A stretch of 64,000 bases of DNA from Aradus depressus (taxonomy: Eukaryota; Arthropoda; Insecta; Hemiptera; Aradidae), in assembly GCA_963662175.1 (NCBI GenBank), contig OY759221.1, positions 22,989,027 to 23,053,026 of the forward strand, read 5' to 3'. Both the position numbers and the translations under genes were made by a program. Positions 2,771 to 60,181 of the stretch are shown here, one piece after another. Below the pieces are notes generated by a model that did not search any database, was not told the origin of the DNA, and saw only the letters and a list, made by a program, of their open reading frames with translations. The stretch's first letter is position 1, and every line of letters starts with the position of its first letter.

Positions 2771-4628
2771 CTAATGAGAATACATGTTAGATGTAAAGTC
2801 AAAAAGACTCAAGAGGGTGTTTTCAACACAAATGCCCATTTCATTGATCTCATCCGAGTCCATATCCCCGGCTATAGTGTCGCTGAGGATGAGGATGGTC
2901 TTGTCTTTTGGCTTCTTCTCCTTGGGCATACAGTCCTCAAAAAGGGACTGTGTGAAGGACTCCAGCATCCCTGAGAGGGTCCGATCCTTCTTGTGAGCTA
3001 GGAAGGTGTTGAAGGCTCGTCGAGTACATCTCTTGAAACCCAACTCTCCGCTGATGTCTGAGGAGCTGGAGTCCCGAGAATGACTGGAATCGTCTTTTAG
3101 GATCTTGCCCAGGCACGATTTGAAAGAATTGGATTTGGCAAAATTGAGTATCAGTTGAATCTCATCATCTGTAAGTTTAATTCGTTTGGATTCTTTTGGA
3201 GCACCTTGAAAAAAAAAATAATAGAAAGAATAACAATTTAGAAATTTGTATTAGTATGCTATTCTGTGAGAGAGATAAGTGCGTGTCTTATGCTCTCCAA
3301 TATCTGAACGAAGTGCATAAAGAATGAAAAACATGCAAAATTTGAATTTTATAGAAAATATGAAAGCTGGTAAAGGACCAGGGTATTTGTACTTTTCTAG
3401 TTTGGAATAGAACAGCGCCAGAGATTCTCAGGCCCCCACTACTTTTTAACATTTATCCTATAAGCATTGGCTTTTATTTCTATGTTAGAAACATACTGTA
3501 ACATAGCACAGAACTAGCTTGCTTGTCTACAGTAACTATGCTCAAGATCGCAGGTTCGAAGCCTGATCGCGGGACTTATGTTTTGGGACATGATACATTA
3601 AGTGATGTCAGTTGTTGGTCAAAAATCCCTATCTTAGGTAACTAAAGATAGATAATCAACATTTAGGACTCCCACAGTAGAGTCGTCGTCTACCAAGACG
3701 ATGAAAGAGCGTTCTGCTAGTGGGCGATACGATCACTTAGTTAAAGCCCGGGCTTGAGTCACAAAAACAAACATACTATTTTATTTAATAGTTTATGTCT
3801 ATTTAATAGTCTATTTAAACTCGTAAATAATCGTATTAATTTAGAAGAATTGTTGATGTTAGTATATTAGCGACTACATACTGATTACTCCGCCTGGATA
3901 AGGTTGTACGATAGTTTGTTATGTCAATGACGAAACGCACCGGAACTCCACAGCAGCGCTGGTGCTCATTGTCAACAGACTGTGAAATTTACGCAAGAAA
4001 TTTACTAAGCTCATGATTGCGGGATCGAAAGGTCCTTAGGTTTTTTTATCAGGGAGGTGAAGAAACCCTGATTACGCCGTCCTTCGGATGATCCTAAGCC
4101 TGTACGATGTCTGGTACTCGTTAAAGACCCCTACTTTAGCTGAATAAAAATTTAATGTTGGCAAAACGTAGGACTCCCATAGTAAAGTCGGGCTCATGTA
4201 CACCAGAGCGACAAAAGAGTGCTTGAGACACTGGGAAACGAACAAAAGAGGCGATATGACCTCGAAGTTAAAAGGCCGGACGTGAGTCACAATAATTAAA
4301 TGACTATTGACAAAAATATAGATATGCAGATAGGATAACCGAAATACATGATTATGAATTATAAAATAACTTATATATATATATGTGTGGTGGGCTGGTG
4401 TTTTACACCTAGGGATCTAAGCATCCAATGCTTTTATCCTTCCCCCTTATTATATTAACTGTATGTTTATACTTATACTGTACTTATACTAATAAAATAA
4501 CTTAGTATATTAGTTAACTATTACTATAATCCTCCATTTTTGTTGTAGAACCATCTGGGGGGTATAATCTACTTACAGTAAGCCGCAGTTAAGAGAACAG
4601 CGATTGTGACCAAGTGCAGATACTCCAT
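2771..4628 (-). CDS. Gene A: secreted Cys-motif protein, paralog 1
   Basis: Coding exons are 4577-4628 and 2771-3204 (486 nt, 161 aa). Exon 1 encodes MEYLHLVTIAVLLTAAY plus the first base of a codon; donor GTAAGT follows. Exon 2 starts after an AAG acceptor with GT GCT CCA, so the split codon is TGT (Cys) and the mature part begins APKES. The mature protein has the family motifs: NFAKSNSFKSC near residue 38, GFKRCTRRAF near residue 72, then SLFEDC and MGICVEN, giving four mature Cys. It lacks the ERC-x-LF-x-MG tail seen in B and C and ends DFTSNMYSH. Just upstream of the ATG is a pyrimidine-rich acceptor (exon resuming at 4633), so a 5' non-coding exon or spliced leader is likely. Not a family I recognise. 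The intron holds two SINE copies and the end of a LINE. Confidence 0.8.
3510..3767 (+). mobile_element. tRNA-derived SINE, decayed copy
   Basis: B-box GGTTCGAAGCC at 3552, then the family body (AGGACTCCCACAGTAGAGTC) and tail AAAGCCCGGGCTTGAGTCAC. The A-box part is weak. Confidence 0.75.
4000..4295 (+). mobile_element. tRNA-derived SINE, decayed copy
   Basis: Weak tRNA head (GGGATCGAAAGG), then ACGCCGTCCTTCGGATG, CCTGTACGATGTC, CTCGTTAAAGACCCCTAC and the tail GGCGATATGACCTCG. Confidence 0.75.
4376..4490 (-). mobile_element. LINE 3' end, second copy
   Basis: Reverse-strand copy of the 3' tail found at 8860-8970. It has the AAGGGGGAAG block, the 'gcatccaatgc' segment, CCCTAGG, the palindrome GGTGT...ACACC and a terminal (TA)n tract. 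Only the 3' UTR remains. It lies in the intron of gene A. Confidence 0.7.
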
Positions 4629-4920
4629 TTTGCCTTTAAAAGAAGAAAAAAGAAAATCCCATTATGAATTTAGTTTTAAATTGTAAGTAAATTTATTATA
4701 ATACTTATCTCTCTTATCTACATTGTATATTAAATATATTTACTCTCTGGGACTTGCATGGATGACTGCCGCAAGCCTACTCATTAGAGGTTCACTACAA
4801 TCTTTGCAAGCCATTACACAGCTCAAAGTCAGATTATAACGAGACTTTTTAATTTAATATTTTATCTTCAAATTCGTATCATTATATACGATTTTTAGAG
4901 ACCTATTTATTTTCATTTAA

Positions 4921-5392
4921 TGTAGGTATTTCAATAATTCCAAAAATTTGGCCCTTTTTGGTCTCCTATTAATTTATTTTTTCTTTATTTAGATATACGA
5001 TATTTCGTCCATCAGGACATTTTCAAGTACAACAAATTATAATATTCTCCATTTTGTTATGCTATGAAACATTTTTTTTTATATATATATATATATATAA
5101 CATAGCGTGTCAACATTTTTAACACATATTATATCAAAAATCACTATAATAAAAAAAAAAGATGCACAATGAAGATGTAGAAATACCATATATTAACAAT
5201 TTTGACACGCTATGTTATATTAAAAAAAAAAAAAAAAATGTTTCATAGCATAACAAAAGGAGAATATTATAATTTGTTGTACTTGAAAATGTCCTGATGG
5301 ACGAAATATCCTATAATTAAATGAAGAAAAAATAAATTAATAGAAGGAGATCAAAAAGGGCCAAATTTTTTGGAATTATTGAAATACCTACA
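4921..5392. mobile_element. Foldback MITE, TTAA target
   Basis: Long inverted arms of about 170 bp start TGTAGGTATTTC and pair 4921-5100 with 5200-5392. TTAA lies immediately outside both ends (4917-4920, 5393-5396). Each arm contains GTCCTGATGGAC directly followed by GAAAT. The centre is an AT tract. Lies between genes A and B. Confidence 0.85.
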
Positions 5393-5744
5393 TTAAATTA
5401 ATATTTTATTATACTTTTGGATTGTATAAGGAGATTCTGAATTCATATATATATGCCCCCCTTTAAACCCTGCAACTTTTGTTTGAACAATTTTTTTCGA
5501 TAAAGCTTATTTTTCGATTTATTATTGTTTTTCAGGTTAAATGAATCACCCGGTATAATATATTTATCAGAGCGTCATGTCTCCCATTTATTTTCTTGAT
5601 TTCTTTAATACCTCTATATTTAAACAAGTCAAAACTTAATATAGTATTGACTTGATGTTCAAATATAAAGATCGACTCAATAAATATATTCTATAAAAGG
5701 AAAATTCTGATTGAAAGAAGGAATATTTATCCTAAAGAACATAT

Positions 5745-6421
5745 GAGGCGTTGCGAATAAGATGGGCGAACTCAACATCGGGACAAACATTTTTTTTTTC
5801 TCCATCCGAATCTAGACCCTTCTGTGAATCTACAGGTATATTTTTCATGTTGAGTTCGCCCTTCTTTCCCTCTCAAAATATGCACAGAATGATACCATGC
5901 TGCCTAGAAACTCCGATAGGAGGGCGAACTCAACACCCCACTCCTCCACTGAGGAGCCCCCTGCAAAACTTAAAGATATTAGAGATCTCCTACCGTACGT
6001 TCCATTACCTTGGTCAACATACTTGACAGATATTATTGAAAATCACCAGTCAGCTGCTTCCACGCCCAACGAGGAAACACAAGATGACCAACTTGATTAT
6101 GATGACTCAATATTGCTCATTTTTAACTCGTTTTTAAAATCATTTTTAAATTTGTTTTATGTATGCATACGTACTTTATTGTAATTGTATTGCAAATTAT
6201 AAATAAAATGCATTATTTTTTTAAGTGAGGCTCAAACAAATTCCTGGCCAATTACATTTATTATTTAAAATATAAATAATATTATTATAAAATAACAAAC
6301 CAATATGCGACATCCCATAACGAAAATAACTAGAATACCTTTATTGTTGAGTTCGCCCTTTTGCAAAACTTTTCTGAAAACCAACTTTTGTTGAGTTCGC
6401 CCTTCTTATCCGCAACGCCTC
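5745..6421. mobile_element. GAGG-terminal MITE, ATAT duplication (copy 1)
   Basis: 677 bp. Inverted ends of about 33 bp: GAGGCGTTGCGAATAAGATG at 5745 and its complement ending at 6421. ATAT lies on both sides. GGGCGAACTCAACA or its complement occurs five times inside (5763, 5850, 5921, 6347, 6393), like transposase-binding subterminal repeats. A 95-codon ORF at 5897-6184 is not recognised. Confidence 0.8.
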
Positions 6422-6429
6422 ATATGTAC

Positions 6430-7437: not shown

Positions 7438-9016
7438 GTGCCGGATTAAGCCCTGTGGAGGCCCCCTATCGAAATTTCGGGGTCCCTTAGCAAATTATTC
7501 CCTAATACGTTTTAAATTTTAACCGGTCATTCAATCAGATCATCAGTTATGTAATTACCCAATAACCTGTTGATCATTTACAGAAAAAAAGTCTTAAGTC
7601 CGTTCAAAAATATTTGTCTTTTCATTTTATAAACATAATATTTTTAAGTAAATTTTTTATGTTAAAAATTTTCAACACTTTCAAAGTGATTACGAGAAAT
7701 ATTCATATTATATTTTGTATTACTGAGAAACTTTAAGATAAAGAATAGGATAAAAAACAAAATAGTTGTTTATAGATTAAATTTCACAATGCCCATATTC
7801 AATACAAATAAATAAAATGTATTATACATCAAATATAATATACTATTTAATAACATTTATTAATTTTATTATTTGAAAACAGTTTAAATATTAACTCTCT
7901 TTAATTTTCTTGCCATAAACTCTTTCAGAATATCGTGCTTTTCCAAGACGTCGTATTCAGTGGACATAATGGCAAGGAAATTCAAACGGTCTTGTGTCTT
8001 TGAAGATCGATGACAGTTTTTCAAGAATTTCAATTTTTACGTCAAATACTTCCAATATTTCAGAAATAGAGAAAATTGTTTTATTGTGAAATATTGAAAA
8101 CTTTATTTTATTTATTTTTCTGTGCGCAGGGGAAGCAGTTTAGAATAACTCACATGGAGAAGGTGAAAATCTTCTCCGATAGTCAAGCAGCACTCCAAGC
8201 ACTTACCAGCGCAGAAATCAAATCAAAGCTGGTAAGGGAGTGCGCAAATCAGTTAAACATTCTAGGAAACTGCAAGAAGGTTGGACTCTACTGGGTTCCC
8301 GGACACTCGGGGATCCAGGGAAGGGAAGAGGCAGACTGACTAGCCAAGGAAGGTTCAAGTAAGCCTTTTATGGGGCCAGAGTCGGTGCAGGGAATATCTC
8401 GAGAGACATACCGAACCTGAATTAAAGAGTGGACTAAGGACCTTTTGGAGAGTACATGGAAAGAAAAGACCACATGCAGGCAGTCGAAGATGTTCCTGGG
8501 AGGGGAGTCCAGGGTTCTGAAAGACGGGATTCTGAACCTCAAAAGGAACGAGCTTCGGCAACTAACTGGAGTTCTCACAGGACATGGTCCGTTCAATAGA
8601 CACCTACACACTGTGGGAGTCAAGGACAGTCCTACCTGCGATAGATGTGGGGAAGAAGACGAAACGGCTGCACACTTCCTGGGTATCTGCTCGGGATATG
8701 TGCGAATGAGATTCCACATCTTTGGTAGAGATGTAATCGCAGAGGAAGACTTTAGAAGATTGGACTATGAGAGCATTCTTAGGTTCATTAAGGAAACTGG
8801 GAGACTGAGCACTTCATGAAGAGCTTGGTTCAGGTAGTATAGGTACAGTATAAATATAAACATATAGTTAATATAATAAGGGGGAAGCCCAGCGCTTCCA
8901 GGGAAGGGATAAAAGCACTGGATGCTTAGGTCCCTAGGTGTAATACACCAGCCCTCCATATATATATATAGGGGCCGATAGGCCGCTGTCTACATTGTCT
9001 ATTTATTAATCCGGCA
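7438..9016 (-). mobile_element. hAT element remnant with a nested LINE
   Basis: Ends are inverted: AGTGCCGGATTAA at 7438 and its complement at about 9004-9016. Both ends also share a GGCC..TATCG subterminal segment (7460-7473 and 8972-8994). On the minus strand at 7895-7975 the reading FLAIMSTEYDVLEKHDILKE followed by FMARKLKE matches the ZMYM1-like class of hAT-derived proteins. The LINE fragment at 8120-8975 has landed inside it. Confidence 0.6.
8120..8975 (+). pseudogene. 5'-truncated LINE fragment: RNase H and C-terminal zinc-knuckle domain
   Basis: The reading from about 8152 gives KVKIFSDSQAALQAL, then YWVPGHSGIQGREEAD, a ribonuclease H domain with its catalytic Asp region and the HSG/EAD ends. 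It continues past an in-frame TGA at 8337 and another near 8417 to the C-terminal region with TCDRCGEEDETAAHFLGIC. The 3' UTR runs to a GGTGTAATACACC hairpin and a short (TA)n tail. Such RNase H-bearing LINEs include the I and LOA types; clade not assigned. It sits inside a hAT remnant (7438-9016). Confidence 0.75.
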
Positions 9017-9039
9017 CTTAGTATCAGTATTGTGTGATT

Positions 9040-11172: not shown

Positions 11173-13448
11173 CTAACCCATAATAAAAAGGAAACAACGT
11201 TCCTGGTTTTCTTCGTCTCCTGCTAATAAACCATCATTCGTGACGCCATATTGTATATTGGATTCTCTTCTTGTTTTTGCATTTTCAACGCACATTTTTA
11301 AACGCATTTTTTGTTCTTCGGTTGCCTCAAAATCGATGTCATCGCTTTTGATGTCTTTTACTGCTGTCATAATACATTGTTGAAATTGAGGATCTTCGAA
11401 ATAGTTCTGTACTGATTGTACGTCTTGAATTTCTGCAGATCGTTCTCGTAGCCTGCGTTGATGTTCCGCCTCACGATGTTGTAGAAAAGCCTGTTGAGCA
11501 CATTGTCGAAAACCAGAATTTGATTGTCCGTCTCCAAAGTGTTGTTGGCATGTTGCGAAATTTTTTGTTTTGGCAAAATTTTGAAGTAGTTCAGCTTCCT
11601 TACTTTGAACATTTCCAGCGGGTATACCTAAAACGAATGCAACAATATAGAATTATTATTAATAAATAAAATAAAATAAAAATTCTTCGATGGAGGAAGA
11701 AATATATATATATTTTTTACATATCGGTTAACGTTTCGAATTATTGAGAATTAGCCATAGTTAGTTATTGTGACTCTTGCCCGGACTTTAACAACGAGGT
11801 CATATCGCCTACTAGCAGAGCTCTCATTCGTCACTCTGGTGGACTAAACCAATAATGTGACTAAATGTTGTCTACCCTAGTTTACTAACCTAGGATTGGG
11901 GTCTTTTAACGAGTATCTGACATCGAACAGGCTCGGGACCATCGCTTAACGTTTCAACTGAAGGACAGCGTGCTCAAGGTTTTCTGAATTCCCAGATAAA
12001 AAAACCTAAGGGCCTCGTTCGGGTTTCGAACCCAGGATGTTGAGCTCAGTAGACTAACATGCTACCTCTGAACTACCGGCGCCCTCAAGAGCCACAGTAT
12101 ATTTTATCTTATAATAAAATATACTACCATCATTAGGTAAATATATTATGACTAATTGTCAATAGCTCATTAAATTATTATTTTTTTTTGTTTTCTCATT
12201 TATTGACAATTTTTGTACAATATACATTCAATTCGGCTAAAAGCAAACAAAAAACAAAAGGCCTTGACACTTGAATGAGTCGGCTGACCAACGTCAGTCC
12301 TCTTGGTTAAAGACGCGTTTTCCTAGCTGCAGTTTTTTTTGCGCTGCGTAGTGTGCAATACGTCCAACGTAATGCGCAGTGGACCCAACACAAAGAAAGC
12401 AATGGATTTGTTTTCCTTCAGTGCGGATTGCGTTGTACGTCAGCGTTTCACGTCCTGTGTGACAGGTGGACTGGCTCTGGTCGGGTCTATTTCGCAGTAC
12501 GCAGCGCAACAAACCTCTCTTCGTCGTCGATTAAGTGGTTGTAATCAGTAATTTAAACACACCTTGGTTCTCTCGATCCAAAAACATATTACTGATTGAT
12601 TTCCTTCTGTTAGCGTAATTCAGAAGAACGAAATCCTCTTCTTCATCATCCGTCATGTGTTTAGCTATCAGCAATCCAAGCAGTTTCCTTTTCTTTTCTC
12701 CTAAGCGATTCATTATTGAGATAACATGATGAATGAACACGAAAATTGCTTGAACAGCAGAGCACTTTCCAGATAACTGAATAGTTTTCAGTTGGGAGGA
12801 AGACACAAATCCGCAGCGTGTTTCAGTTGTGCGTTCCTGCCGACGCAAGAGGCTTATCCGGTTCTAAGCAGCGCAAAAAAACTGCAGCTAGAAAAACGCC
12901 GCTTAAGGTTAAATTCTTGTTTATGATTTTGAAAATAGCCGAATGTGTGAAACGTTAACCGATACGTAAAATTGTATTATTATATATTTTTTAAAATCTG
13001 TATTTAAGCCATGTCAATGTAAGTTGGTAGCAATATTATGAATAAATATTTAATTTTTATTATCTTATTACCTTTTTATTTATATTTAAGGTTGAATAAT
13101 TCTTTACTAAAGGTAGTTCTATTAGTGCCTATGTTGTTCACTTAGGATATGTTATCTGAGCTCTTGACTTTTGCACTATTGTTGTTTGTTTCGCATTGAT
13201 AAATTATAGAATAAAAAAATTAAAATTAAAGACACATATAAACAACCGAAGCATATACTCTTAACGGAATAAATTATTTATTTATTTATTATGATTACTA
13301 TTTCTGACTAAAAAATTAAATATTCAAAAGTTTGTTGCAAATTATTATGCTTTCTTCTAAATTCTTGAACATAGATTTTATGTTGGTAATTCTTACCATA
13401 TACTGATGAAAGCGTGACAGCTGTTGCTATAAAGTGTAGTAATGCCAT
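11173..13448 (-). CDS. Gene B: secreted Cys-motif protein, paralog 2
   Basis: Coding exons are 13397-13448 and 11173-11627 (507 nt, 168 aa). Exon 1 encodes MALLHFIATAVTLSSVY plus G; donor GTAAG. Exon 2 follows a TTTTAG acceptor with GT ATA CCC, giving a split Gly codon and mature start IPAGN. Motifs in order: LLQNFAKTKNFATC, FRQCAQQAFLQH, FEDPQFQQC, RLKMCVENAKTRRE and the C-terminal ENQERCFLFIMG, for five mature Cys. Order and spacing match gene C closely. A long ORF at 11367-11612 is an out-of-frame reading of this exon. A strong acceptor (T-run then ACAG, exon resuming at 13497) lies 49 nt before the ATG. AATAAA on the minus strand sits 27 nt after the stop. The 1.8-kb intron has trapped a SINE and a Harbinger-like element. 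Function unknown. Confidence 0.82.
11764..12088 (-). mobile_element. tRNA-derived SINE in the gene B intron
   Basis: Tail at 11770 (GTGACTCTTGCCCGGACTTT), B-box complement GGGTTTCGAACCC at 12024, head complement ending CCGGCGCCCTCA. Confidence 0.85.
12311..12902 (-). mobile_element. PIF/Harbinger-like element in the gene B intron
   Basis: Imperfect inverted ends of about 38 bp share CTAGCTGCAG followed by a T-run and GCGCTGC, with TTA/TAA at both borders. The minus-strand ORF at 12531-12848 (105 aa) has RLGEKKRKLLGLLIAKHM, an acidic run, NRRKSISNMFLDRENQGVFK, resembling the N-terminal part of Harbinger nucleases (LDRE-x-GxF). Catalytic part absent. Confidence 0.55.
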
Positions 13449-14116: not shown

Positions 14117-14151
<35 letters not shown>

Positions 14152-21253: not shown

Positions 21254-24161
21254 CTATCCCATAAAAAATAAAATACATCGTTCTTTATTTTCGTCATCAG
21301 GAACAAAGCCCTCAGTAACAGTCATATCGTTAGGGTTGATAGTTTCATAAATGGCTTCTCTTTTTGGTTTGGCATTTTGAAGACACTTGAGCAAGTCCAG
21401 TTTTTGAAGATCGCCCATTTCTTCACTAAAATCGTCAGATGTTGTCCCCTCCAGCATGGCGCTGATTACACACTGTCGAAATGTGGGATCCTCAAATGAA
21501 ATTTGAATATAACGCTCTATAACTTCTTCTATAATTTTTTTCAAAATGAGCCTTTGTTTTTTATGGTCTCGGTAAAGTAGAAACGCTCTCTGTGCACACT
21601 TTTGAAACCTTGGAGATGAATCTTCATCCTCAATATTTTTCATGCACGACTGGAATGAATGTGTCTTTGAATATTCTTGGAGAAATTGGATTTCTTCGTT
21701 TGTCAATGGTTTAATATTTTTCTCGGAAGGTGCGCCTATAAAATTAATAATTAATTAATGAAAATATAATAGTAAATATAAAATATAAGTATATATAATA
21801 ATAAATACAAACAAAAAATTATATTTTTTAAGTATTATCTATTTAACTAAATATATATATAATATACGGAAGTACTTTCCGTATTGCTAACATCATCAGC
21901 CACGACAGTCGTGGGTTTTTTATCGTATATACCCACCTGGTATGTACAATTGTTTTTTTGGGTATATGGTGGACCACCCATCCACCATTAATCCGAAAAA
22001 AAAATTGGGTAGTTTACATTATATTACATCAAATACTAAAAAAAGGGCCCCACAACAAGAAAACCTTGCAGGTTGTACCAACAATGACTCGCTCTACGAA
22101 ATACCTGCGCCCACCAGTACCTTCCTTATTTGAAAAGAATGGCGGGTTCCTATTCAAATTGTGAATATGCGGAGATGCACTTTCTGTATGAAATGGGGAA
22201 GTTTCTGTGAAATTTGACAACTTCTAGATCATTGTGTAGGGCAAATTTTAGGAATTTTGCACAAATTTTTTTTTTTTCCTACAATTTTGATGTTAAAACA
22301 GTTAAAGTAAAAAATATACTTTCAAGTGAGGGCGCCGGTAGCTCAGTGGTATGCGTGCTTGACTTCTGAGCTCAAGGTTGTGGGTTCGAAACCCGACCGA
22401 GGCCCTTAGTTTATTTTATCTGGGAGGTAAAATAAACTTAAGCACGCCGTCCTTCGGATGGGACGTTAAGCGATGGTCCCGAGCCTGTACGATGTCAGGT
22501 ACCCGTTAAAGACCCCTACCCTAGGTGAATAAAAATTTAAGGTAGGCAAAATTTATGACTCCCACAGTAGAGTCGGGCTCATGTCCACCAGAGTGACGTA
22601 AGAGCTCTCTGGTAGTAGGCGATATGACCTCGTAGTTAAAGCCCGGGCATGAGTCATAAAACCTAACCTAACCCATTCTTTCAAGCAAGATAAAAGGCTG
22701 GTTGTGGTTTCGTTGAAAGGCAATTTTTTCGATCTTTCCAAAACCATAGTTAAAAGTGCAAATTCATATCCCAAAAGCTGAGAAAAATGTTTATTTCGGT
22801 ATCAAGTCATGTTAATTCTGAACAAACTTTAAAAAAAGTCATACGTATAGACGTTTTGAGATAGAGAGCTGTGGTTGGTGGCGTTTTACTCCTTTTTTGA
22901 TCTAGTTTTATCCAAATTTTTTTTCGGGTTTATGGTGGACCACCTGGTATATAGGTATAATATATGGAAATACTTTCTGTATTACAGGCAATACTTTCTG
23001 CTAACATCACCAGCCCAGTCGTTGTTTTTTTTATTGTATTGTCAGTGCTTTGCTGTCCAGTGGGTGTCAGTATTTTCGTAAAAGTGAGATTCATTTAAAT
23101 TTCCTCATCAGTTCTTGTCATTTCAGTCTGGTATGTGGTTCCAAGTCAATTTACAGTTTCAGATAAGGGACAATGTCACTTTCTGCGAATTGATTACCGT
23201 TCAGTAAGACAGGAGGACATGAAATGAGTGGTGATCGTCGGCAGGATGAGTGTAAATCATTATCTGAATAGATAAATGTCATATCAGTACTTTCTGAAAT
23301 TTTGAAAAAACAACGCTAACGTTTTTAGTTTTTAACTTCTATTTTAACTATAGCGGGTCTAGTAGTCATACAGCAAATGCTATTTGAAGAAATATTTATT
23401 GTTTTTTTAATTTTTATTATAAATTTATAGTTTATTATTATTTTTGTAATTAGTTATTTGTTCACATTACTATTGTTTTAAGAGAATTTCACTGTAAATA
23501 AAATAACAGTTATATTTATGTTAAAATATGTATACTTTTAATATAATAAAAACTATATTCCGTATTATTGAGATTTATTTAGAGAAATGAGAAAAGAATG
23601 TTGTACACGATCTTTGTCAGTATGTGTTGAAAACAGACATGTTACAAATCGGTATTAAGTGACATAAAGCGGAATAACTGTTACTTTTGTTGTTGATTAG
23701 ATTGTTAGCTTGTTTTTATCTACAGAAAATATTTTGATATTGACACAACCTTTGATCACTTAGCTATTGAACTACAGATGTTATACATCAAACTTTAAAA
23801 AAGAGTTATTACCGATTTCCAGGCATTATTCTACAACGACCTTTTGTCAGTATGTACAGGATATACAGAAGGATATGGCTGTGTGCATAACTCGATTTTC
23901 ACAAAAATTGCTGATACAACTTTTTTCTATTCAGCTTAACGAAATGTAGTTGTTTCTGATTTTTGTTAATTGCTTTGAATTTCCATTTTTGGCTCATGTG
24001 TTGAGATGTGAATGTAGAGAGAAAGAAACATTGTAAGGATGAAGAATGAAGATTTCGGTGCAAATGTGTATAATGAGTGGGAATAAAGACTGTTATATAA
24101 TTAGGATCTTACAGTATACAGAAGAGAGTATGGCAGCAGTTGTGATCACCTGTAGTAACAT
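21254..24161 (-). CDS. Gene C: secreted Cys-motif protein, paralog 3
   Basis: Coding exons are 24113-24161 and 21254-21735 (531 nt, 176 aa). Exon 1 encodes MLLQVITTAAILSSVY plus T, donor GTAAGA. Exon 2 begins GC GCA CCT after TATAG, making a Cys codon across the junction and mature start APSEK. Motifs: FLQEYSKTHSFQSC, RFQKCAQRAFLLYRDH, FEDPTFRQC, LLKCLQNAKPKRE, ENKERCILFFMG, so five mature Cys aligned with gene B. The 5' acceptor TTTTTACAG ends just before 24174, 13 nt from the ATG. A possible AATAAA lies about 220 nt past the stop. The 2.4-kb intron carries a full-length SINE and other repeats. Probably a secreted protein with several disulfides; no known family recognised. Confidence 0.82.
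22329..22675 (+). mobile_element. Full-length tRNA-derived SINE with CCTAA tail
   Basis: Starts GAGGGCGCCGGTAGCTCAGT, B-box GGGTTCGAAACCC, ends CATGAGTCATAAAACCTAAC then CTAACCC. CTTTCAAG on both sides is a candidate target duplication. Lies in the gene C intron. Confidence 0.9.
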
Positions 24162-29223: not shown

Positions 29224-30012
29224 ATGGAAAAAGAAGGCTTAGAAAAGATATTATCAGCCATAAATGAATTCAAACAAGAAATTAGAAAAGATCTAGAAAA
29301 ACACACTGAACGAATAACAAATAATTTCTGTACATTTACAAATGAAATAAATGGAAAAATTAACGAACAAGAGAAAAAAATCAACTTTTTCGAGAGAGAA
29401 ATGAGGAAAAGAAATATAATAATACACGGTTTAACTGAAAATAACATTTACGGTGACCTAGTAGAATCTGTCATACATGTAATTCACGATAGACTGAACG
29501 TTCCGTTCAAAGAAGAAGAAATCGATTATATCAGAAGATTGGGAAAACCAATCGAAAATAGAACCAGACCAATTTTAATAGGACTTACAACACATAGGAA
29601 GAAAATAGAAATTTTAAAAAACAAATATAAAATTAAAGATCAGATATATTACATAACAGAAGATTTTCCTAAAGAAATAATTAAAAAAAGGAAAGAATTA
29701 AAAGATCAGCTAATTCAGGCAAGAAAGGAAGGCAAGTTTGCGATCCTAAAATACGATCGACTAATAATTAAAGAAAACAAAAACAAATTTCAAAACAATA
29801 AAAGAAACTTAAGTGTGTCGCCTCAAAAAGATTCTACGAACCAAGCAACTCACACAGCGCAGACCCCAAAAAGAAACAAAGTCTTGCAGGATGCTATGGT
29901 TCCGAAGAATAGAAACAAGACACTAGAACATTCTTTTAGAGATCGCTCAAATTCATTTGGGAGTCTAACTGCAAAACCCAACAACAACAAGTTCACCGAA
30001 ATCGATAAATGA
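29224..30012 (+). CDS. Retrotransposon ORF1 protein (L1 ORF1-like)
   Basis: 262 aa. Residues 1-60 are a Lys/Glu-rich heptad-like coiled coil. It is followed by ERKR-type sequence leading into NIIIHGLTENN, the start of an RRM-like single-strand nucleic-acid-binding domain as in L1 ORF1 proteins, through DYIRRLGKP, RPILIGL and YYITEDFPKEI. The tail is basic with Ser/Thr/Asn (residues about 190-262). Known role in L1-type elements: RNA chaperone that coats the element RNA. The stop is UGA followed by C, and the downstream frame stays open into ORF2. Confidence 0.85.
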   Translation: MEKEGLEKILSAINEFKQEIRKDLEKHTERITNNFCTFTNEINGKINEQEKKINFFEREMRKRNIIIHGLTENNIYGDLVESVIHVIHDRLNVPFKEEEIDYIRRLGKPIENRTRPILIGLTTHRKKIEILKNKYKIKDQIYYITEDFPKEIIKKRKELKDQLIQARKEGKFAILKYDRLIIKENKNKFQNNKRNLSVSPQKDSTNQATHTAQTPKRNKVLQDAMVPKNRNKTLEHSFRDRSNSFGSLTAKPNNNKFTEIDK

Positions 30013-35642: not shown

Positions 35643-38600
35643 CTATTGGTCATTAGATCGCGAAATTCTCTGCTGTTGGTACACTTTAAAAGCATTTTGG
35701 GCGCATCGGAAAAAATCTTCACCGCCGGTTTCGTAACTGTTATCACTTTCATCAGTATAATAATCGTAATCATAGTCACTTTCAATTGTGTTGTCAGGGT
35801 TATAACCGTAATCACTTTCGTTTGTGGTTTCGTCATTTTCAAGTGTATAGTTACTTTCAGTTGTCTCATCTGTGTCATAAGCATAATCATTTTCATTTGT
35901 GTCGTCAGTTTTATAGGTGTAATCACTTCCTTTTGAGTTGTCGGAATCATAACCATAATCATTTTCATTTGTGTCGTCAGTTTTATAGGTGTAATCACTT
36001 CCTTTTGAGTTGTCAGAATCATAACCATAATCATTTTCATTTGTGTCGTCAGTTTTATAGGTGTAATCACTTTCTTTTGAGTTGTCGGAATCATAACCAT
36101 AATCATTTTCATTTGTGTCGTCAGTTTTATAGGTGTAATCACTTCCTTTTGAGTTGTCGGAATCATAACCATAATCATTTTCATTTGTGTTGTCCGTATC
36201 ATAACTGTATTTATTTTCATTTGTGCTGACCTTAACATAATTGTAATTATTTTTATTTGTGCTGTCCTTAACATCATTTTTATTTGTGTTGTCATATTTG
36301 TAATACTTTTCATTTGTGTTGTCCTCATCATAACTATAATCATTGAAATCTGTGGTGACCACATACTTAAAGTCAGTTTGACTTGGTTTGTCACCAGCTT
36401 TGAGAAGTGAAGAAGGTCTTGGTCTGATGACCTGCTGATGTCTTTTCTTTCCCTGACGACTGCTAGCTCCGAAAAAGTTCATCGTGCACAGTGCGAATGT
36501 GTCAGACCGTACGAAGTCTTGGAAGAGGCGAGCTTGCGCAAACAAAGGATGTTTCATTCGAACAGTGTCTGGTTGAGTTTCTTGCGCAACTGTGTCATTT
36601 TTAGTTGTTTCGTCACCTTAAATGAAAAATCAAATTTTATTACACTATAATATTAATCGATGTGTGAAATTTTCAGATATGTAGTCATTAGTAGTTATTC
36701 CAGTCATACCACTTAAATCATATTATCGTTTAACATTTCATCCTCAATATTGGGCTCAAAAAATGTAATAAATGGCCACAAAAACATCAAAAATTCATAA
36801 CTTACGAAAATTATTATGAGAATTATGGAGTCGACATGATAGATATTCTGTCAAGATTGGACAATAATATATGAAAATATTCTGATAAAAAATTGTAAGA
36901 TTATGAAATGTGTTTATTTATTTACATATTTACGACATAGATTCGTCATTAGCGAGTGCAATGACTTTGTCGAGTGCTATACTGCTGAGGTACGTGACCA
37001 AAGAGGAGTCTTGGAGGAGGTTCCTGTGCCAAGCGCGCTTAAGGCGTTCTCGTGAAAGTGTGGGGAGAGTGTCTGTGGATTATTGTTGAATAAGTGGATT
37101 GGCGTAATGATGGAGTTTTTCATGAAAATTCTGATAGCGTATCTTGATAACAGAGGGTACCAATGGGATGTCAATGTATGGGATGACTATGCAATATGTG
37201 TATAGTGACTGAAAGCGTTGTATATTTGATTCTTTGGCTGATCCCCATATCTCGATACCGTAAGTACAGATGGGTTTTAGTATATTGTTATATATGTTAA
37301 TTTTGTTTTTAATTGATAATGTCGATCGATTTCAGTCGTCCAATTCGTCGTTTGAAGTCTGTTCGTTTCAGTCTGATGTGTATTGTCCAAGTCTAAATGA
37401 ATTTCTAGATATTGAACAGTGTCGGATGCCGAAATAGACTGGTTGTTTCGGGTATTAAATATGAATTATTGTGCCCTTTTAGTCTTTTTGATGAATGCGA
37501 TGCTGAGAATGGGAGATGTCTCCCGAAACGTTTAACGTTATTACGTATTAAATTTGTGACTTGAAATAAATTGGGAGATATATAGCTGCATTACAAAATT
37601 ACTATATATTTTTAAGAAAACCAAATAGTTATAATTTAAATAAAATTGAATAATAATAAAATTGTTATAATTTAAATAAAATTGATAAATAAAATTGACC
37701 TAAAAACAGCTGACACAACTGTTTCCCTCATATTCTCATATTAATGCTGAAAATTTTCTTCACAAACTTTTTTTACATTAGATCAAAACCACGCTTGTAA
37801 TCATAAAAGGAGTACTCATTATTTAATATAGTTTTTCTTTATGTTTCCCCAATTTTGACATAATACTCTTTGAAATATTTGAAATTATATTGACAGTAAA
37901 AAAGGAGTACTCATTATTTAATATAGTTTTTCTTTATGTTTCCCCAATTTTGACATAATACTCTTTGAAATATTTGAAATTATATTGACAGTAAAAAAGG
38001 AGTACTCATTATTTAATATAGTTTTTCTTTATGTTTCCCCAATTTTGACATAATACTCTTTGAAATATTTGAAATTATATTGACAGTAAAAAAGGAGTAC
38101 TCATTATTTAATATAGTTTTTCTTTATGTTTCCCCAATTTTGACATAATACTCTTTGAAATATTTGAAATTATATTGACAGTAAAAAAGGAGTACTCATT
38201 ATTTAATATAGTTTTTCTTTATGTTTCCCCAATTTTGACATAATACTCTTTGAAATATTTGAAATTATATTGACAGTAAAAAAGGAGTACTCATTATTTA
38301 ATATAGTTTTTCTTTATGTTTCCCCAATTTTGACATAATACTCTTTGAAATATTTGAAATTATATTGACAGTAAAAAAGGAGTACTCATTATTTAATATA
38401 GTTTTTCTTTATGTTTCCCCAATTTTGACATAATACTCTTTGAAATATTTGAAATTATATTGACAGTAAAAAAGGAGTACTCATTATTTAATATAGTTTT
38501 TCTTTATGTTTCCCCAATTTTGACATAATACTCTTTGAAATATTTGAAATTATATTGACAGTAAAAAAGGAGTACTCATTATTTAATATAGTTTTTCTTT

Positions 38601-39862
38601 ATGTTTCCCCAATTTTGACATAATACTCTTGGAAATATTTGAAATTATATTGACAGTAAAAAAGGAGTACTCATTATTTAATATAGTTTTTCTTTATGTT
38701 TCCCCAATTTTGACATAATACTCTTTGAAATATTTGAAATTATATTGACAGTAAAAAAGGAGTACTCATTATTTAATATAGTTTTTCTTTATGTTTCCCC
38801 AATTTTGACATAATACTCTTTGAAATATTTGAAATTATATTGACAGTAAAAAAGGAGTACTCATTATTTAATATAGTTTTTCTTTATGTTTCCCCAATTT
38901 TGACATAATACTCTTTGAAATATTTGAAATTATATTGACAGTAAAAAAGGACAGTTTATTAATTTAATTATATACGAGATATTGTTTATTATTTATGAGG
39001 AACATATAACTCTTTATAGCTGCATCAATTACAGTAGAATAGCAGTATACTAATATTTTGCTTCAAACCAACGATTTTTTCTTCATATTCAAGTCTATGC
39101 ATGGCGAATAATTGAAACAAACTTAGTGTTTGAAATATTGCTTATTCCACAAGAAATATATAAACTAATGGTTACGGTTTTACACCATCGTTATATTTGG
39201 TTATAAACTAAGAGTTAGTTATTATGACTCATGCCCGGGCTTTAACTACAAGGTCATATCGCCTACTAACAGAACGCTCTTTCGTCACTCTGGTGAACGT
39301 GGGCCCGACTCTACTGTGGGAGTTCTAAATTTTGCCTTCCCTAAATTCTTATTCACGTAGGACAGGGGTCTTTAACGGGTACCTGACATCCGAAGGACGA
39401 CATGCTTAAGTTTATTTTATCTCCCAGATAAAATAAACTAAGATCCTCGGCCGGGTTTTGAACCCATAAACTAAGATTTCTTAATTGTATGTATACATTT
39501 CAAATTGCAAACTTCAATGTTTGTTTTTGTTTATTTCTTATAAGTTTCCACAAAACGTCAACGTTTCTCAGCTCGTTGCTGAAATTGGAAACATTTCATT
39601 TTTTTTTTTTCAAATGCGACATCCAAATCATACACTTGAAGTTTAGTCATTTAAAATCGACCGATTGCACTCTGGACACCAGTAAGATCACCTAGTGAAC
39701 ACATTATATTGGATAATAGTAAGTGATAATAATAATTATTATTATCTAAAATTAGTTTTTGAAAATATTGAAAACAATTAAATTTAATATATTCGACATC
39801 ATCTTACAATAAGCTGAGATGAGAAGAGTAGCCAGTGTTATTGTGAGATGTAAGGAAGACAT
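35643..39862 (-). CDS. Gene D: secreted protein with 24-aa Asp/Tyr/Thr repeats, paralog 4
   Basis: Coding exons are 39808-39862 and 35643-36616 (1029 nt, 342 aa). Exon 1 encodes MSSLHLTITLATLLISAY plus T (donor GTAAGA). Exon 2 starts GT GAC GAA after TTTAAG, completing a Cys codon; mature start DETTKND. The core motif LFQDFVRSDTFALCTMNFF near residue 50 matches E and F. Then comes a basic stretch, then a long Asp/Tyr/Thr/Asn-rich region with four 24-aa units (DYTYKTDDTNEN-DYGYDSDNSKGS type), then the second core motif DFFRCAQNAFKVYQQQR at the C-terminus. The repeats sit between the two conserved Cys and so stretch the loop a disulfide would close. The 5' acceptor (TTTTTCAG) resumes at 39894; AATAAA lies about 90 nt after the stop. 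The 3.2-kb intron contains the 95-bp tandem array. Function unknown. Confidence 0.8.
36960..37400 (-). pseudogene. Jockey-like reverse transcriptase C-terminal remnant
   Basis: The minus-strand reading contains CTYGIEIWGSAKESNIQRFQ, then PYIDIPLVPSVIKIRY and HEKLHHYANPLIQQ, followed after a stop by RERLKRAWHRNLLQD. TYGIxxWG...NIxRxQ followed by H-x-N near the end is the usual C-terminal region of Jockey-clade RTs. 5' part missing and frame broken. Lies in the intron of gene D. Confidence 0.7.
37805..38950. repeat. 95-bp tandem array, 12 units
   Basis: GGAGTACTC recurs every 95 bp from 37809 to 38854, and a partial GGA follows at 38949, giving 12 units. The units are almost identical; one shows G for T in CTCTTTGAAA near 38631. 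The array lies wholly inside the intron of gene D. The near-identity points to recent expansion or homogenisation. No coding capacity and no similarity to neighbouring repeats seen. Confidence 0.95.
39216..39460 (-). mobile_element. tRNA-derived SINE, head truncated
   Basis: GACTCATGCCCGGGCTTTAA tail, GGAGTTCTAAATTTTGCC, ends in GGCCGGGTTTTGAACCC (B-box complement). Lies in the gene D intron. Confidence 0.85.
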
Positions 39863-40092: not shown

Positions 40093-40704
40093 CATGTATG
40101 GGCAACCTTTGACATGTTGCGGGCCAAACCGCGTAGATGGTTCAAAATAAAATAACGTCGGACTTTAAAGTAGTGTTCATAATTTTTAGCGATAGATATC
40201 AGACATGAAATAATAAGACAATGTTATTATAATACAATTTATTAAAATAACAAAATGAAATGAAAAAAAATAGATACAATATTATAATTAAATCGTGAAA
40301 TTTGCAATTATTACAAACTACGAAAGTTAAGTAGCGACACCGAAATCAATGAGACACTGGAGCTTGAATTTGGGAAACTAATCCATTGATGTTTGGATTA
40401 ATTCCACTGATACAAAGACGTCTTAAGGCAATCACATGAATACGATCGCATCCGCAAACACGCACATTAAAAACACAAAAAAAATACACCAATTTATTGA
40501 CCATAAACAAACACGCGATGACATGAATTTTTCTTCATTCGCCTTGCTCGCTCACTTGATTCCGCAGGAGCAAGCGACAAACCCCATCCTACTCGATCTT
40601 CCTAATTTGGAGTAAGTAGTGTAATATATTTTTTTTTTTTTTTATTGGGTTTTTCAAAATGTCTCGCGGGCCGGAACAAATCTTACGATTGTTGCCCACA
40701 TATG
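40093..40704 (-). mobile_element. Non-autonomous copy of the same hAT family, with target duplication
   Basis: Reverse-orientation relative of 52112-52840. Starts CATGTATGGGCAACC and ends with the complement of CATATGTGGGCAACA. Flanks CTTTAAGT (40085-40092) and CTCTAAGT (40705-40712) match at 7 of 8 bases, the hAT duplication length. Keeps the end of the coding part (antisense of NINGLVS near 40385) but is further deleted. Confidence 0.75.
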
Positions 40705-46858: not shown

Positions 46859-48447
46859 TCAATTGAAGCCTTGCTTATTGTTTGAGACGTGACTTGGAGG
46901 GTACATCTCTTCCCTGGAGTGGCCCTGAACATAGGACTGTAAGGCCTCCTTAGCACACTGGAGGTAGTCATTGTCGTCATTGTTGCTCTCATGGGCGTTG
47001 TAGTCTCCGTAAACATCTTCACCAACATTCACATTTCCAGTGTTTGTTGGTTCATATTTCGTTGGTCTATATTTTGTTGGTCTATCATTAACTTCATTCC
47101 CAACAAAACGTGGTTTTCTTGAGTAGCCCTTATCGGAGTCAAAGTAGTTCATTGTACACACGGCAAATGTGTCCGACCTGGCGAAGTCTTGGAGAAGGCG
47201 AGGCAGTGTTCCGATGGAGTCAGCTGGGATAGGTTGGTTGTCTTTTGTTGGGGGTAGAAGTTCAAGTGGGTTGCTGAGAATCTGAAGGTTCGCGAGTTGA
47301 GTTTGGCTGGGTATTTCCTCAATTCCAGCTGGAGCACCTGTTGTAAAAACAAGCGAAAAACAACATTTTATTGACTCCTTTCTGCAAATTGACTTACTGT
47401 TTACGATGCATAATCTACTGAGAGCCATTCTCAGTATCATAGACAAGGGGATCCTAGGGCTCTAAGGTTACATGGGCTCACCACGGGTGCGGATTCGAAT
47501 CCCATCCGTAGGATTGTTTTATTCAAAGATAAAACGTCTCTCCCTAGTCTTTGGATGTTTGTAAATAACCCCGGTAAGGTAGCCCTGGATGGGCGTTGTA
47601 AGAAAAAAAAAGTATTGTAGAAAAAAAAAACATTTCAATATATATATTTTTTTTGAGAGTAATCAATCATTCGAAAGAATATTACAAGAGCTCTTAGGAA
47701 CAGGAATAGTTCAATCTATTTGTGAAATAGGATGAGTGTAATGGAGGATTTTTGGATGTTATACTTCCTTGAGCCCCATCCTGTAGCAATGAAAGATCAG
47801 AAAAATATTGAGGATAAAACATTTTTCTTGTTGGAAGATATTTATTGGTTTAACTTGACTAATCGTTGTGACTTTATCTTCACAACACTTACCACAAAAC
47901 CCCCCTCGAAGGTTGAAGAGAAGATGGAACCGCGACTTACTGCCACCTTGAATCATATTCGTTCTTAATTTTTTTTTTTTTTTTACATCATTTTCTTTAC
48001 TTTTATCATCTCTCTTATCCGTCCATCAAAATTGTCTTTCAATTCCTTTTTATTATTTTTTTTTTTTTTTGTTCTTGTCCTAATAATTAAGATAAATTTT
48101 CGTCCCGAGGATCTACCACTGGGTATTTCCTCTCACATGCCCTTCACGCCAACATATCAATACCATCATAGATGCTGGTTGTTGCACCCTAGCAACAGTT
48201 GTATCTTTATAACTAAAAGACAAAAAAAAAACTTGACTAATATACAATTTTGCGCCAAAAGTATATTGTGAAACATGTAATTTCAACTTTTGAGTGATTC
48301 AATAGAATTTCATTTAGGAAACCCCAATAAATAACAAATATTTCACATTAATTATATGATTGATATGTTTTAAATGTAAATAATCTAGTACTTACTATAG
48401 ACTGATGCGATAATAGGAGCAGTGACACTTAGGAAAAGAAAATTCAT
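46859..48447 (-). CDS. Gene E: secreted Cys-motif protein, paralog 5
   Basis: Coding exons are 48396-48447 and 46859-47337 (531 nt, 176 aa). Exon 1 encodes MNFLFLSVTAPIIASVY plus A (donor GTAAGT). Exon 2 begins GT GCT CCA after ACAACAG, completing a Ser codon; mature start APAGIEEIP. A Pro/Leu-rich linker precedes LLQDFARSDTFAVCTMNYF. Then comes a basic stretch with a short KYRPTKYEPT repeat, the acidic block GNVNVGEDVYGDYN shared with gene F, and the second core motif DYLQCAKEALQSY. Only two mature Cys, as in D and F. An apparent upstream in-frame ATG at 47446 lies in the intron and is not the start. The 5' acceptor TTTCAG resumes at 48479. Closest to gene F, of which it looks like a version without the long repeats. 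Confidence 0.8.
47450..47612 (+). mobile_element. tRNA-derived SINE related to the second family
   Basis: CTAAGGTTACATGGGCTCACC, B-box GGATTCGAATCCC, TTTTATTCAAAGATAAAACG, GGGCGTTGTAAG then an A-run. More divergent. Lies in the gene E intron. Confidence 0.7.
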
Positions 48448-50094: not shown

Positions 50095-50450
50095 ATAGGT
50101 TAGGTTAAGTTTTATGACTCATGCCCGGGCTTTAACAACGAGGTCATATCGCCTACTACCAGAGCGCTCTCTCGTCACTCTGGTGGACATGAGCCCGACT
50201 CTAGTGTGGGAGTCCTAAATTTTGTCTACCCTAAATTTTTATTCACATAGGGTAGGGGTAGGGGTCTTTAACGAGTACCTGACATCGTACAGGCTCGGGA
50301 CCATTGCTTAACGTCCCATCCGAAGGACGGCATGCTTAAGTTTATTTTACCTCCCAGATAAAATATACTAAGGGCCTCGGTCGGGTTACGAACCCGCGTT
50401 CTTGAGCTCAGAACTCAAGCACGCATACCACTGAGCTACCGGCGCCCTCA
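50095..50450 (-). mobile_element. Full-length tRNA-derived SINE, target duplication
   Basis: AGGTTAGGTTAAGTTTTATG tail end, head complement ACTGAGCTACCGGCGCCC. AATATTATTATA and AATATTCTTATA flank it (11 of 12). Confidence 0.92.
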
Positions 50451-52111: not shown

Positions 52112-52840
52112 CATACGTGGGCAACAACCGGCCCGCTGTAAGATTTGGTCCGGCCCGCGAGACATTTTGAAAAACCCAATTTAAAAAAAAAAAAATATTA
52201 CACTACTTACTCACTACTTGCTCCAATAAACTTGCAAATGGAGTTGATCGAGATTCAAGAAAACTCACTCCTAAAATTTAAATTTGAAGACGTGGAGTTG
52301 TGCGATTTCTACAAAAAATATCTCGAAGAAGACCATTTTCCGCAGCTTAGAAAATTCGCAAGAAGATTGATTTGTGCATTTGAAAGTACTTATAAATGCG
52401 AACTGTTCTTTTTAATGATGAAAGTTAATAAATCAAAACATCGTACAAGGCTCACAGAAGATAATTTGGAAAATTCTTTACGTCTTTGTATCAGTGGAAT
52501 TAATCCAAACATCAATGGATTAGTTTCCTAAATTCAAGCTCAAGTGTCTCATTGATTTCGGTCTCGCTACTTAACTTTCGTTGTTTGTAATAATTCCAAA
52601 TTTCACGATTTAATTATAATATTGTACCTATTTTTTTTCATTTCATTTTGTTATTTTAATAAATTGTATTATAATAACATTGTCTTATTATTTCATGTCT
52701 GATATCTATCGCTAAAAATTATGAACACTACTTTAAAGTCCGACGTTATTTTATTTTGAACCATCTACGCGGCCCGCGAACGTATTTGCACACTAAAGTT
52801 TGGCCCGCAACATGTCAAAGGTTGCCCATACATGTAGACT
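52112..52840 (+). mobile_element. hAT element related to GTF2IRD2-like transposases
   Basis: Ends CATACGTGGGCAACAA and the complement of CATGTATGGGCAACC are inverted, with CCGGCCCGC segments just inside. The ORF at 52145-52531 (128 aa) has FEDVELCDFYKKYLEEDHF, RKFARRLICAFESTYKCELF, MMKVNKSKHRTRLTEDNLE, the C-terminal dimerisation region of the hAT proteins often annotated as GTF2IRD2-like. The N-terminal three-quarters of the transposase is deleted. Confidence 0.7.
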
Positions 52841-55290: not shown

Positions 55291-55294
55291 CGTA

Positions 55295-56997: not shown

Positions 56998-59900
56998 TCA
57001 CTCCAGGCCCAGATTGTAGTTATTGCCCGGAGTGTATTGGTTGTTGTTACCATAGGTGGGGTAGGCGTAATTGTTGCTAGGAGTAGCATATTTGTTACTG
57101 TTGTCATTTGAGTTATAATAGCTGTTGGGGGTGTAATTGATGTTACTATTACTGTTTGGGGTGTAATTGTTGTTACTGTTACTATTGGTGTTTGGATTGT
57201 TGTAATTGTTGCTGTTATTATTTGTGTTTGGGGTGTTGTAATTATTGCTGTTAATATTTGTGTTTGGGGTATTGTAATTGTTGCTGTTTGGGTTGTAATA
57301 GTTGTTACTGTTACTATTGGTGATTGGATTGTTGTAATTGTTGCTGTTACTATTTGTGTTTGGGGTGTTGTAATTATTGCTGTTACTATTGGTGTTTGGA
57401 TTGTTGTAATTGTTGCTGTTACTATTTGTGTTTGGGGTGTTGTAATTATTGCTGTTACTACTTGTAGTTGGGGTATTGTAATTGTTGCTGTTACTATTTG
57501 GGTTCTTGTAGTTGTTGCCGTTACTATTTGTGTTTGGGGTATTGTAATTGTTGCTGTTACTATTTTTGTTTGGGGTGTTGTAATTATTGCTGTTACTATT
57601 TGTGTTTGGGGTATTGTAATTGTGGCTGTTACTATTTGTGTTTGGGTTGTAGTAGTTGTTGCTATTACTACTGGGCTTGTTGTAATTGTTGTTGGGTTTG
57701 TATTGGTTATTATTATTATTGTTGTAGCTAGGGATACTTGGAGACGAGTAATCCGAAAAGTCGCCTCCAGATAAACTATTTAAGTAGGTTGCGAGATTTT
57801 TATTATCATTTTTGTCCTGAGAAGAGTCTGAAATGTCGATATCATACTCGTTCGATTCGTAACTTGGTTTTTTATTTCCTTTATCCTTATAGACTTGGTA
57901 AGCATGCTGGGCGCATTGTAAAAAGTCATCATCATCGTTTTCTGCAGACTGTACATTGTAATCGCCATAAACATCCTCACCAACATTAGCATTTCCAATC
58001 TCTGGCTTGTTATTATTCTTGATAGGCCTCTTGTGATATTGTCTCGACATTGAATTGGAAAGAAGTGCTCTCCCAAAGAAATTCAAGGTGCATACTGAAA
58101 ATGTATCTGATCTGGCAAAGTCTTGTAAAAGTTTAACTTGATCAAGAACTTCCTTGAGAGGTTCAGATTCGTTGGATGCACTTTCAGCTTCTGATTCAGG
58201 TTCGGGTAGAGTTTCAATGACAGATGGCAGTGATTCAGATACTTCAGGCAGAGTTTCAATGACAGATGGCAGTGATTCAGATACTTCAGGTAGAGTTTCA
58301 ATGACAGATGGCAGTGATTTAGATACTTCAGGCAGAGTTTCAACGATTGGCGGCAGTGCTTCAGGTGCTTCGGGCAACGTTTCTGGTATAGGTTCCTGGG
58401 GATCAGCTTCAAGGACTGGAGAGTCAGGACTATTTGATATAGCGTCAATTTCTTCAATCTCGGTTGGAGCACCTTCAAAATAAAATATATAAATTATTAT
58501 TTTTACTCTTTTTATATTTATAGTATTAAAAAATATTGTAATCGGGCGAAAATCCTTCGGAGCTAAGCGTCATCTATTCGGGTACTTGGGAACTAGCTCT
58601 CTCCCTCTCACTTTATCGACTTTACCGCCCTCTTTGTCTCCCGAAGGAAGATTGCATTTGACGTCAATAAGTACCCTTCGGGAATAACTATTCGAAAAGA
58701 TGAATCAAACTTATGACTCAATCATTTTTTCTTTTTTTTTTACTTTCTCCTTACATAAATATCGTTAGAGGTTGTCTACACATAATTAGATAGTAATATT
58801 TATCTGTACTAATGTAAGAACCCAATCCGAATAAAACTATTACTTTATGAATCATATAAATAACTTCATGAACCTTGTTATATTTTTCCAAATTATAAGC
58901 AGAACTGCTCTTCTTCCAAATATTTACTTTCTTATACCTATAGTATAAGGAAGTATTGGAATCGTGCGAAAATCCAAGATCGAGTTTTCAAAGACTTCCA
59001 AGTTTCAAGTTCCCCTAAACTGCTTTGACCATTTTCGCGATGATGTCTCTCTGTGTACATCTGATTGGAACTTTATAAGCTTTCTACTAACTCAAAAACG
59101 ATTGCAGCATTCAACTTAAAATTTTAAGTAATAATGTCATTAGATCTGATAGGCTTTGGCCGAAATCAGAAAATTAAGACCACTTTACTTCGAGGCCTAA
59201 GTACATTTTACAAACTGATGCTTATATTTACGACCTAATGAAAAATTTCTTTGGATAAGAGTTGCAGAGAAAACTAAAAGGCACATTTTATAATCAATAA
59301 GATGTTTTGTAAGTCGCCCGGTTCGCGAGATACACGTCCACAACCACATTAATATGTCGTCTTGAAACTCATTTTATCTTACGTATGCTTGATTTATGCG
59401 AAAACTGTTAGTCCTATCGAAAAATTCGTTCGTACCAAAAATGTTCCATAATAAATGCCCAATCGCCAGTGGTCCTTGGATTTGAGATAGGATGAATATG
59501 ACAAAAGTTAAGCGCCTCAAACAATGAAAAATAAATTGCCGTAGTTATGTTTAAAATGTATCGCCAAGAAGCGAATTATAAAATATATTTTTTTTATTCG
59601 TAGTTTTATGAGATTTGACCGTTACACGACTTTCCAACCACTTTTGCAGTAATCGCTCTCCCTTCCCATATCCTCTCTCAAAATTATTTCATACGGACAT
59701 TACTGGGTATACGAAAGTCACACAGAATTACGTTGTGCAGTAAAACAAAGAAAACCGCCGATGCCAACACATTATTTTCATATACAAAGTAACGCCAGTA
59801 TGACATGAATTTGAGATGGTAAATGGTATAGATTTAGTATTTTGCCACTCTGGTGGATATGAACCCGACTCTACTGTGGTAGTCCTAAATTTTAGCCTAT

Positions 59901-60181
59901 TGTTAATTAGGCTTGGGATTTTAAATGATCATCTGAAAACGAACAGGCGCGGGACCATCACTCAACGTCCCATCCGAAGAACGTCATGCTAAACGTTTTT
60001 TCTCTTTCCTCTCAGATAAAAAACCTAAGAGTTTCAGTCGGTTTTCTTCCGAAACCGAAAGTGCTACTGGTAAATGATAAAAATTATTATTTGCCAATGC
60101 AAATAATGTATTTTAAAAAATGCACTTACTATTCACTGCCGTCATTATCACTGCTATTGTAATATAATGTAGAAGTGCCAT
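56998..60181 (-). CDS. Gene F: large secreted protein with Pro/Glu and Asn-rich repeats, paralog 6
   Basis: Coding exons are 60130-60181 and 56998-58472 (1527 nt, 508 aa). Exon 1 encodes MALLHYITIAVIMTAVN plus A (donor GTAAGT), nearly the signal peptide of gene B. Exon 2 begins GT GCT CCA after TTGAAG, completing a Ser codon; mature start APTEIEEID. Order: Pro/Glu/Leu-rich region with three or more 14-aa units (SLPSVIETLPEVSE), core motif LLQDFARSDTFSVCTLNFF, basic stretch, block GNANVGEDVYGDYN, second motif DFLQCAQHAYQVYKDK. Then a C-terminal tail of about 220 residues built largely of a 12-aa Asn/Ser/Tyr/Pro/Thr unit (SNSNNYNTPNTN type), ending YNLGLE. Only two mature core Cys. The acceptor TTTCGTAG resumes at 60207, and ACTGATCGACAATG around the start is shared with gene D. 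The Asn tail suggests a disordered or matrix-forming secreted protein, which is inference only. Confidence 0.82.
58925..59215 (-). repeat. Second dispersed repeat family, copy 3
   Basis: Complement order: GAATCGTGCGAAAATCCAAG, CTCAAAAACGATTGCAGC, GGCCGAAATCAGAAAATTAA, AGGCCTAAGTACATTTTAC. Confidence 0.65.
59225..59480 (+). repeat. Third dispersed repeat, copy 1 of 2
   Basis: AGAGTTGCAGAGAAAACTAA, GTTCGCGAGATACACGTCC and ACCAAAAATGTTCCATAAT recur in order at 61045-61340. Directly follows the previous repeat, so they may form one larger element. Confidence 0.6.
59840..60060 (-). mobile_element. tRNA-derived SINE, decayed fragment
   Basis: CCACTCTGGTGGATATGAAC, CCGACTCTACTGTGG and ACGTCCCATCCGAAGAACG match the SINE body; ends are lost. 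Lies in the gene F intron. Confidence 0.8.

Follow-up and report, generated by a model that had tools for sequence, protein, structure and literature searches.

Whether six large exons, each preceded at a distance by a tiny exon on the same strand, form one family of genes, how old such a family would be and what its products might do are the questions raised by this locus. In the window (the whole stretch of 64,000 nucleotides analysed), positions 2771-60181 of the minus strand hold an array of six predicted genes, A to F, arranged head to tail with two coding exons each, and joining the exons yields frames that stay open as far as a stop codon, for proteins of 161 (A), 168 (B), 176 (C), 342 (D), 176 (E) and 508 aa (F). 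The introns start with GTAAG, end with AG and lie in phase 1 in all six cases. The plan of a signal-peptide exon of 49-55 nt, a phase-1 intron and a single mature exon, proposed in a preliminary description of this DNA, holds at the coordinates given below, where each signal-peptide exon is backed by a check of its splice sites and by a signal-exon scan.

4577-4628, minus strand: signal-peptide exon of gene A, 52 nt
2771-3204, minus strand: mature exon of gene A; 4 mature Cys; block 1; BLASTP to C, 1e-16
13397-13448, minus strand: signal-peptide exon of gene B, 52 nt
11173-11627, minus strand: mature exon of gene B; 5 mature Cys; block 1; BLASTP to C, 4e-36
24113-24161, minus strand: signal-peptide exon of gene C, 49 nt
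21254-21735, minus strand: mature exon of gene C; 5 mature Cys; low-confidence all-helical model, mean pLDDT 61.9
39808-39862, minus strand: signal-peptide exon of gene D, 55 nt
35643-36616, minus strand: mature exon of gene D; 2 mature Cys with acidic, Tyr-rich 36/72-nt tandem repeats between them; block 2; BLASTP to F, 7e-11
48396-48447, minus strand: signal-peptide exon of gene E, 52 nt
46859-47337, minus strand: mature exon of gene E; 2 mature Cys; short 15-nt repeat only; block 2; BLASTP to F, 4e-25; model with mean pLDDT 49.1
60130-60181, minus strand: signal-peptide exon of gene F, 52 nt
56998-58472, minus strand: mature exon of gene F; 2 mature Cys; Cys core preceded by a 42-nt repeat and followed by a 36-nt repeat rich in Asn, Ser, Pro and Tyr; block 2
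3205-4576, 11628-13396, 21736-24112, 36617-39807, 47338-48395 and 58473-60129, minus strand: predicted introns of A to F, in this order

Gene B had been said to be hidden by an out-of-frame open reading frame (ORF), and indeed the ORF list gives 11367-11612 in another frame and lacks B. The introns lie close to where the -3/-1 rule would set the cleavage site, and the products of the six genes are probably secreted. Upstream of the first of the Cys motifs described below (motif 1) there is no in-frame ATG in four of the six genes (A, B, C and F), one in D and two in E, so that, as far as this test goes, D and E might still start without splicing.

For the signal-exon scan, modelled on the six exons themselves, a candidate was an ATG followed by 15-20 open codons, one base and GTAAG, and candidates were ranked by hydropathy. 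The minus strand gave seven, with the array exons at ranks 1-6, and the plus strand a single one, also high-scoring (hydropathy 2.33). At a hydropathy of 1.9 or more, a cut-off chosen after the candidate list had been seen, six candidates on the minus and one on the plus strand compare with a mean of 0.2 and a maximum of 2 per strand in 200 first-order random sequences.

The possibility of a further, non-coding first exon was considered from the sequence 5′ of each ATG. Acceptor-like sites score 14 in A, 14 in B, 11 in C, 16 in D, 13 in E and 16 in F, against a background of 2279 ATGs of which 14% reach 13, 6.5% reach 14 and 0.6% reach 16; there is, then, a good hint of such an exon in D and F, a weak one in A, B and E and none in C. 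A scan for promoter and first exon by the combination of TATA, initiator and donor returned four overlapping candidates only, all for D and all in an AT tract, and was set aside. The stretches shared among the regions upstream of A-F mostly look like dispersed repeats.

Mobile elements and tandem arrays occupy the space between the array genes, namely a LINE, the remnant of a second LINE, SINE-like copies, a hAT remnant and tandem arrays. The LINE (29224-32956, plus strand) has an ORF1 devoid of Pfam matches and an uninterrupted ORF2 for endonuclease and reverse transcriptase (PF14529, PF00078). Among the 120 of its 791 matches that were listed, those named by organism belong to Lepidoptera, one psyllid and one Spiroplasma ixodetis assembly, with identities of 39-43% for the named insects and 38% for the Spiroplasma assembly, perhaps host DNA. 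The second LINE remnant (8076-8819, plus strand) shows similarity to RNase H and zf-RVT, both below the curated cut-offs, and a hAT transposase dimerisation region (PF05699) lies at 52145-52531 on the plus strand. A tRNA-Gln predicted at 50372-50445 (minus strand) is probably the head of a tRNA-derived SINE and not a gene, since it belongs to a dispersed repeat that recurs near 11.9, 22.3, 27.6, 39.3 and 41.1 kb. The intron of gene D carries at 37805-38951 about 12 copies of a 95-bp unit (99% matches), a 179/91-bp satellite at 63240-64000 runs into the window edge, and an inverted pair of 293 nt (40129-40421 and 52480-52772; 98% complementary) is spaced by 12 kb. Searches of viral and prokaryote collections with the patterns of the dispersed repeats gave no match, a result that says little about an animal host; from the insects among the listed LINE matches, the DNA is likely to come from an insect.

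Kinship among the six mature proteins is carried, in the first place, by two Cys motifs that the preliminary description had given as [FY]-[AVS]-[KR]-[ST]-x-x-F-x-x-C (motif 1) and F-x-x-C-[AT]-x-x-A (motif 2). Slightly loosened, each finds six matches in the six-frame translation of the 64 kb, one per gene, so both are indeed shared, the second with the amendment that E has Y in place of the initial F (YLQCAKEA). As the motifs were drawn from A-F themselves, these counts demonstrate specificity and not independence. BLASTP pairs B with C and E with F, and joins A to the family through C and D through F (E-values in the list above). The genes fall into two neighbouring blocks, A-B-C on the left and D-E-F on the right, a division that the preliminary description had not drawn. 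Profiles of both blocks, that of D-E-F consisting of joined pieces of the three proteins, were run on the 2094 stop-to-stop ORFs of the window. After its own members, the A-B-C profile finds F (16.1 bits, E 0.00085) and then E (12.3 bits, E 0.012, under the HMMER inclusion line), with D absent from its matches among these ORFs; the D-E-F profile finds B (20.3 bits, E 4e-5) and then C (14.7 bits, E 0.0023), places an unrelated ORF at 10.2 bits and scores A at 6.8 bits, which is noise level. When the residues of each ORF were shuffled ten times, the top scores were 7.7 bits for the A-B-C and 8.9 bits for the D-E-F profile, the latter being exceeded by the unrelated ORF, and among reversed ORFs neither block profile had a match at E <= 1. 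A profile of motif 1 alone gave B at E 0.14 and no further gene of the array among the matches listed. Taken together, the BLASTP pairs and the matches across blocks support the earlier view of a paralogous tandem array built on one gene plan. How the Cys segments correspond between the blocks is uncertain, because one alignment places the second Cys segment of E and F opposite the third F-x-x-C in B and C.

The age of the duplications can be gauged from the codons. Over the 20 codons of motif 1, D, E and F differ from one another by 4.0-7.5 non-synonymous changes over about 47 sites and have reached saturation at the synonymous ones (10.0-13.5 differences over 12.5-12.8 sites). The dN is 0.27 in a second block of 34 codons in E and F and 0.40 in 96 codons picked by hand from the alignment of B and C, dS being saturated in both; all these blocks were picked for conservation and describe the core rather than whole proteins. 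With motif 1 hardly altered among D, E and F despite saturation at synonymous sites, the codon pattern indicates that A-F arose by old duplications and that their core is under constraint, and the array is not a young one. The description of the family as rapidly evolving can accordingly be kept for the flanks and repeats, and has to be given up for the core. What might still be supposed is that unrelated ORFs have been joined by wishful splicing, the splice junctions being, after all, predicted from sequence alone; the pairwise E-values, the profiles, the codon pattern and the signal-exon scan all oppose such a chance assembly, to which we give next to no credence. A-F are, judging from these comparisons, almost certainly a real gene family. 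Gene prediction readily overlooks secreted families whose signal exons are tiny, and this array was recovered from the DNA letters by themselves.

The preliminary description had recognised no named family, and this agrees with the searches. In Pfam-A the six proteins found none above the curated cut-off (three weak families up to E = 1, the best at E 0.074), matches to PDB sequences stayed at noise level, and a set of about 5.8 billion proteins that includes insects held no convincing relative of A-F. The literature searched, also with the motif strings, contained no family recognised as this one, and as far as those searches go the family is unpublished.

Predicted structures give some orientation. 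The AlphaFold2 model of gene C (3 sequences) is all-helical, with all five mature Cys in helices, and that of gene E (5 sequences) has both Cys in helices and about 50 non-helical residues between them; both models are too weak for fold assignment, and fold comparisons of the C model decide nothing. The calculated masses are 16.1-18.7 kDa for A, B, C and E, 37.7 kDa for D and 54.5 kDa for F; A, B and C measure 143-159 aa after the leader and have a pI of 5.0-5.9. Small size, acidity and the all-helical model of C would suit soluble carrier or haemolymph proteins that bind ligands, at least as regards A, B and C. This is an unlikely reading, as it leaves the repeats of D and F unexplained, finds no Pfam family above cut-off and meets a Cys spacing unlike that of odorant-binding proteins.

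The repeats set two members apart. In D, tandem repeats lie between the two Cys; in F, repeats flank the Cys core on both sides; A, B, C and E are free of long ones. Within mature exons the repeats preserve the reading frame: periods found by TRF are divisible by three in 13 of 13 rows inside these exons versus 8 of 27 outside (Fisher p = 1.9e-5, from 40 rows that overlap within an array and are not independent). Variation at codon positions 1/2/3 is highest at the third in the 36-nt repeats of F (20/28/48), and shows no clear third-position excess in the 36-nt repeats of D (56/39/65) or the 42-nt repeat of F (8/1/6). In composition, F contains 26.3% Asn, 13.9% Ser, 9.2% Pro and 7.8% Tyr, and D 16.4% Asp and 11.5% Tyr, with a pI of 4.1.

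The preliminary description had suggested that the products might be gland, cement, cuticle or host-interaction factors. The best explanation that we can offer is that A-F are structural secretory proteins of a lineage-restricted family, contributing to a product such as a glue, coat, silk or eggshell, a tentative reading to which we would give somewhat less than an even chance. It is suggested by the shared plan, the old age, the constrained Cys core, the lack of recognised domains and the in-frame low-complexity repeats in two members; against it count the four members that have no long repeats and so are unlike bulk material, the weak models, the failure of the A-B-C profile to reach D and its score for E under the inclusion line, the noise-level score of A and the unrelated ORF above the shuffles with the D-E-F profile, the weak match of B to the motif 1 profile, the 36-nt repeats of D with no clear third-position excess and the uncertain correspondence of Cys segments between the blocks. 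Alternatively, the array might supply salivary, venom or other host-interaction proteins, i.e. tandem secreted factors directed at host or prey and diversified by duplication. Probable secretion, clustering, the lack of relatives found and divergence outside the core would all fit; the strong conservation of motif 1 in D, E and F at saturated synonymous sites would not, and long low-complexity in-frame repeats like those of D and F would seem less typical of such factors, so that we regard this alternative as rather improbable.

If the products are indeed structural, all six would be secreted from a gland or epithelium, and their Cys-bearing helices may be linked by disulfides, either inside one chain or from chain to chain, into a small core that would serve as the unit of folding and assembly. 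The long repeats of D and F, between or around the Cys segments, could then provide flexible, cross-linkable material, and A, B and C may be small core-only partners in a lineage-specific structural secretion. A more specific form of this proposal, which we consider rather doubtful, is an old, undescribed family of secreted material proteins in which repeats of variable length were inserted in the connecting loop (D) or around (F) a disulfide-joined helical core, so that one array would supply assembly partners made of the core alone as well as the repeat-bearing bulk polymers of a lineage-specific secretion. Should a structural role prove true, the array would offer a compact series of natural variants of a biomaterial, the core being present with and without repeats.

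Several known systems invite comparison. The Osiris genes of insects form an old tandem cluster, a likeness to A-F, and encode a signal peptide, a two-Cys region and a DUF1676 domain; DUF1676 is not among the Pfam matches of the six proteins up to E = 1. The bicycle proteins of aphids form secreted, lineage-restricted families in which Cys motifs come in pairs; their genes are split into many tiny exons and have a C-Y-C motif, whereas A-F have two coding exons and F-x-x-C segments. Odorant-binding proteins are small, secreted, helical Cys proteins, often from clustered genes, with six (or four) Cys in which C2-x3-C3 and C5-x8-C6 spacings recur; A-F differ in Cys number and spacing, the mature Cys lying at 48, 77, 109 and 143 in A, at 44, 60, 102, 130 and 162 in B and at 47, 63, 105, 134 and 170 in C. 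Brochosomins are the coat proteins of leafhopper brochosomes, and A-F could be brochosomin-like coat proteins of a membracoid bug (leafhopper or treehopper), which we hold to be very unlikely. The size of 21-40 kDa given for brochosomins in part of the published text (PMC12119089) includes, by calculated mass, one of the six proteins, D, with A, B, C and E smaller and F larger. Brochosomins are described, in the portions of the sources concerned, as secreted, paralogous, lineage-restricted orphan proteins whose cysteines may form disulfides (PMC12119089, PMC10607721), and it is in secretion, paralogy, lineage restriction and cysteines that, description against description, A-F resemble them.
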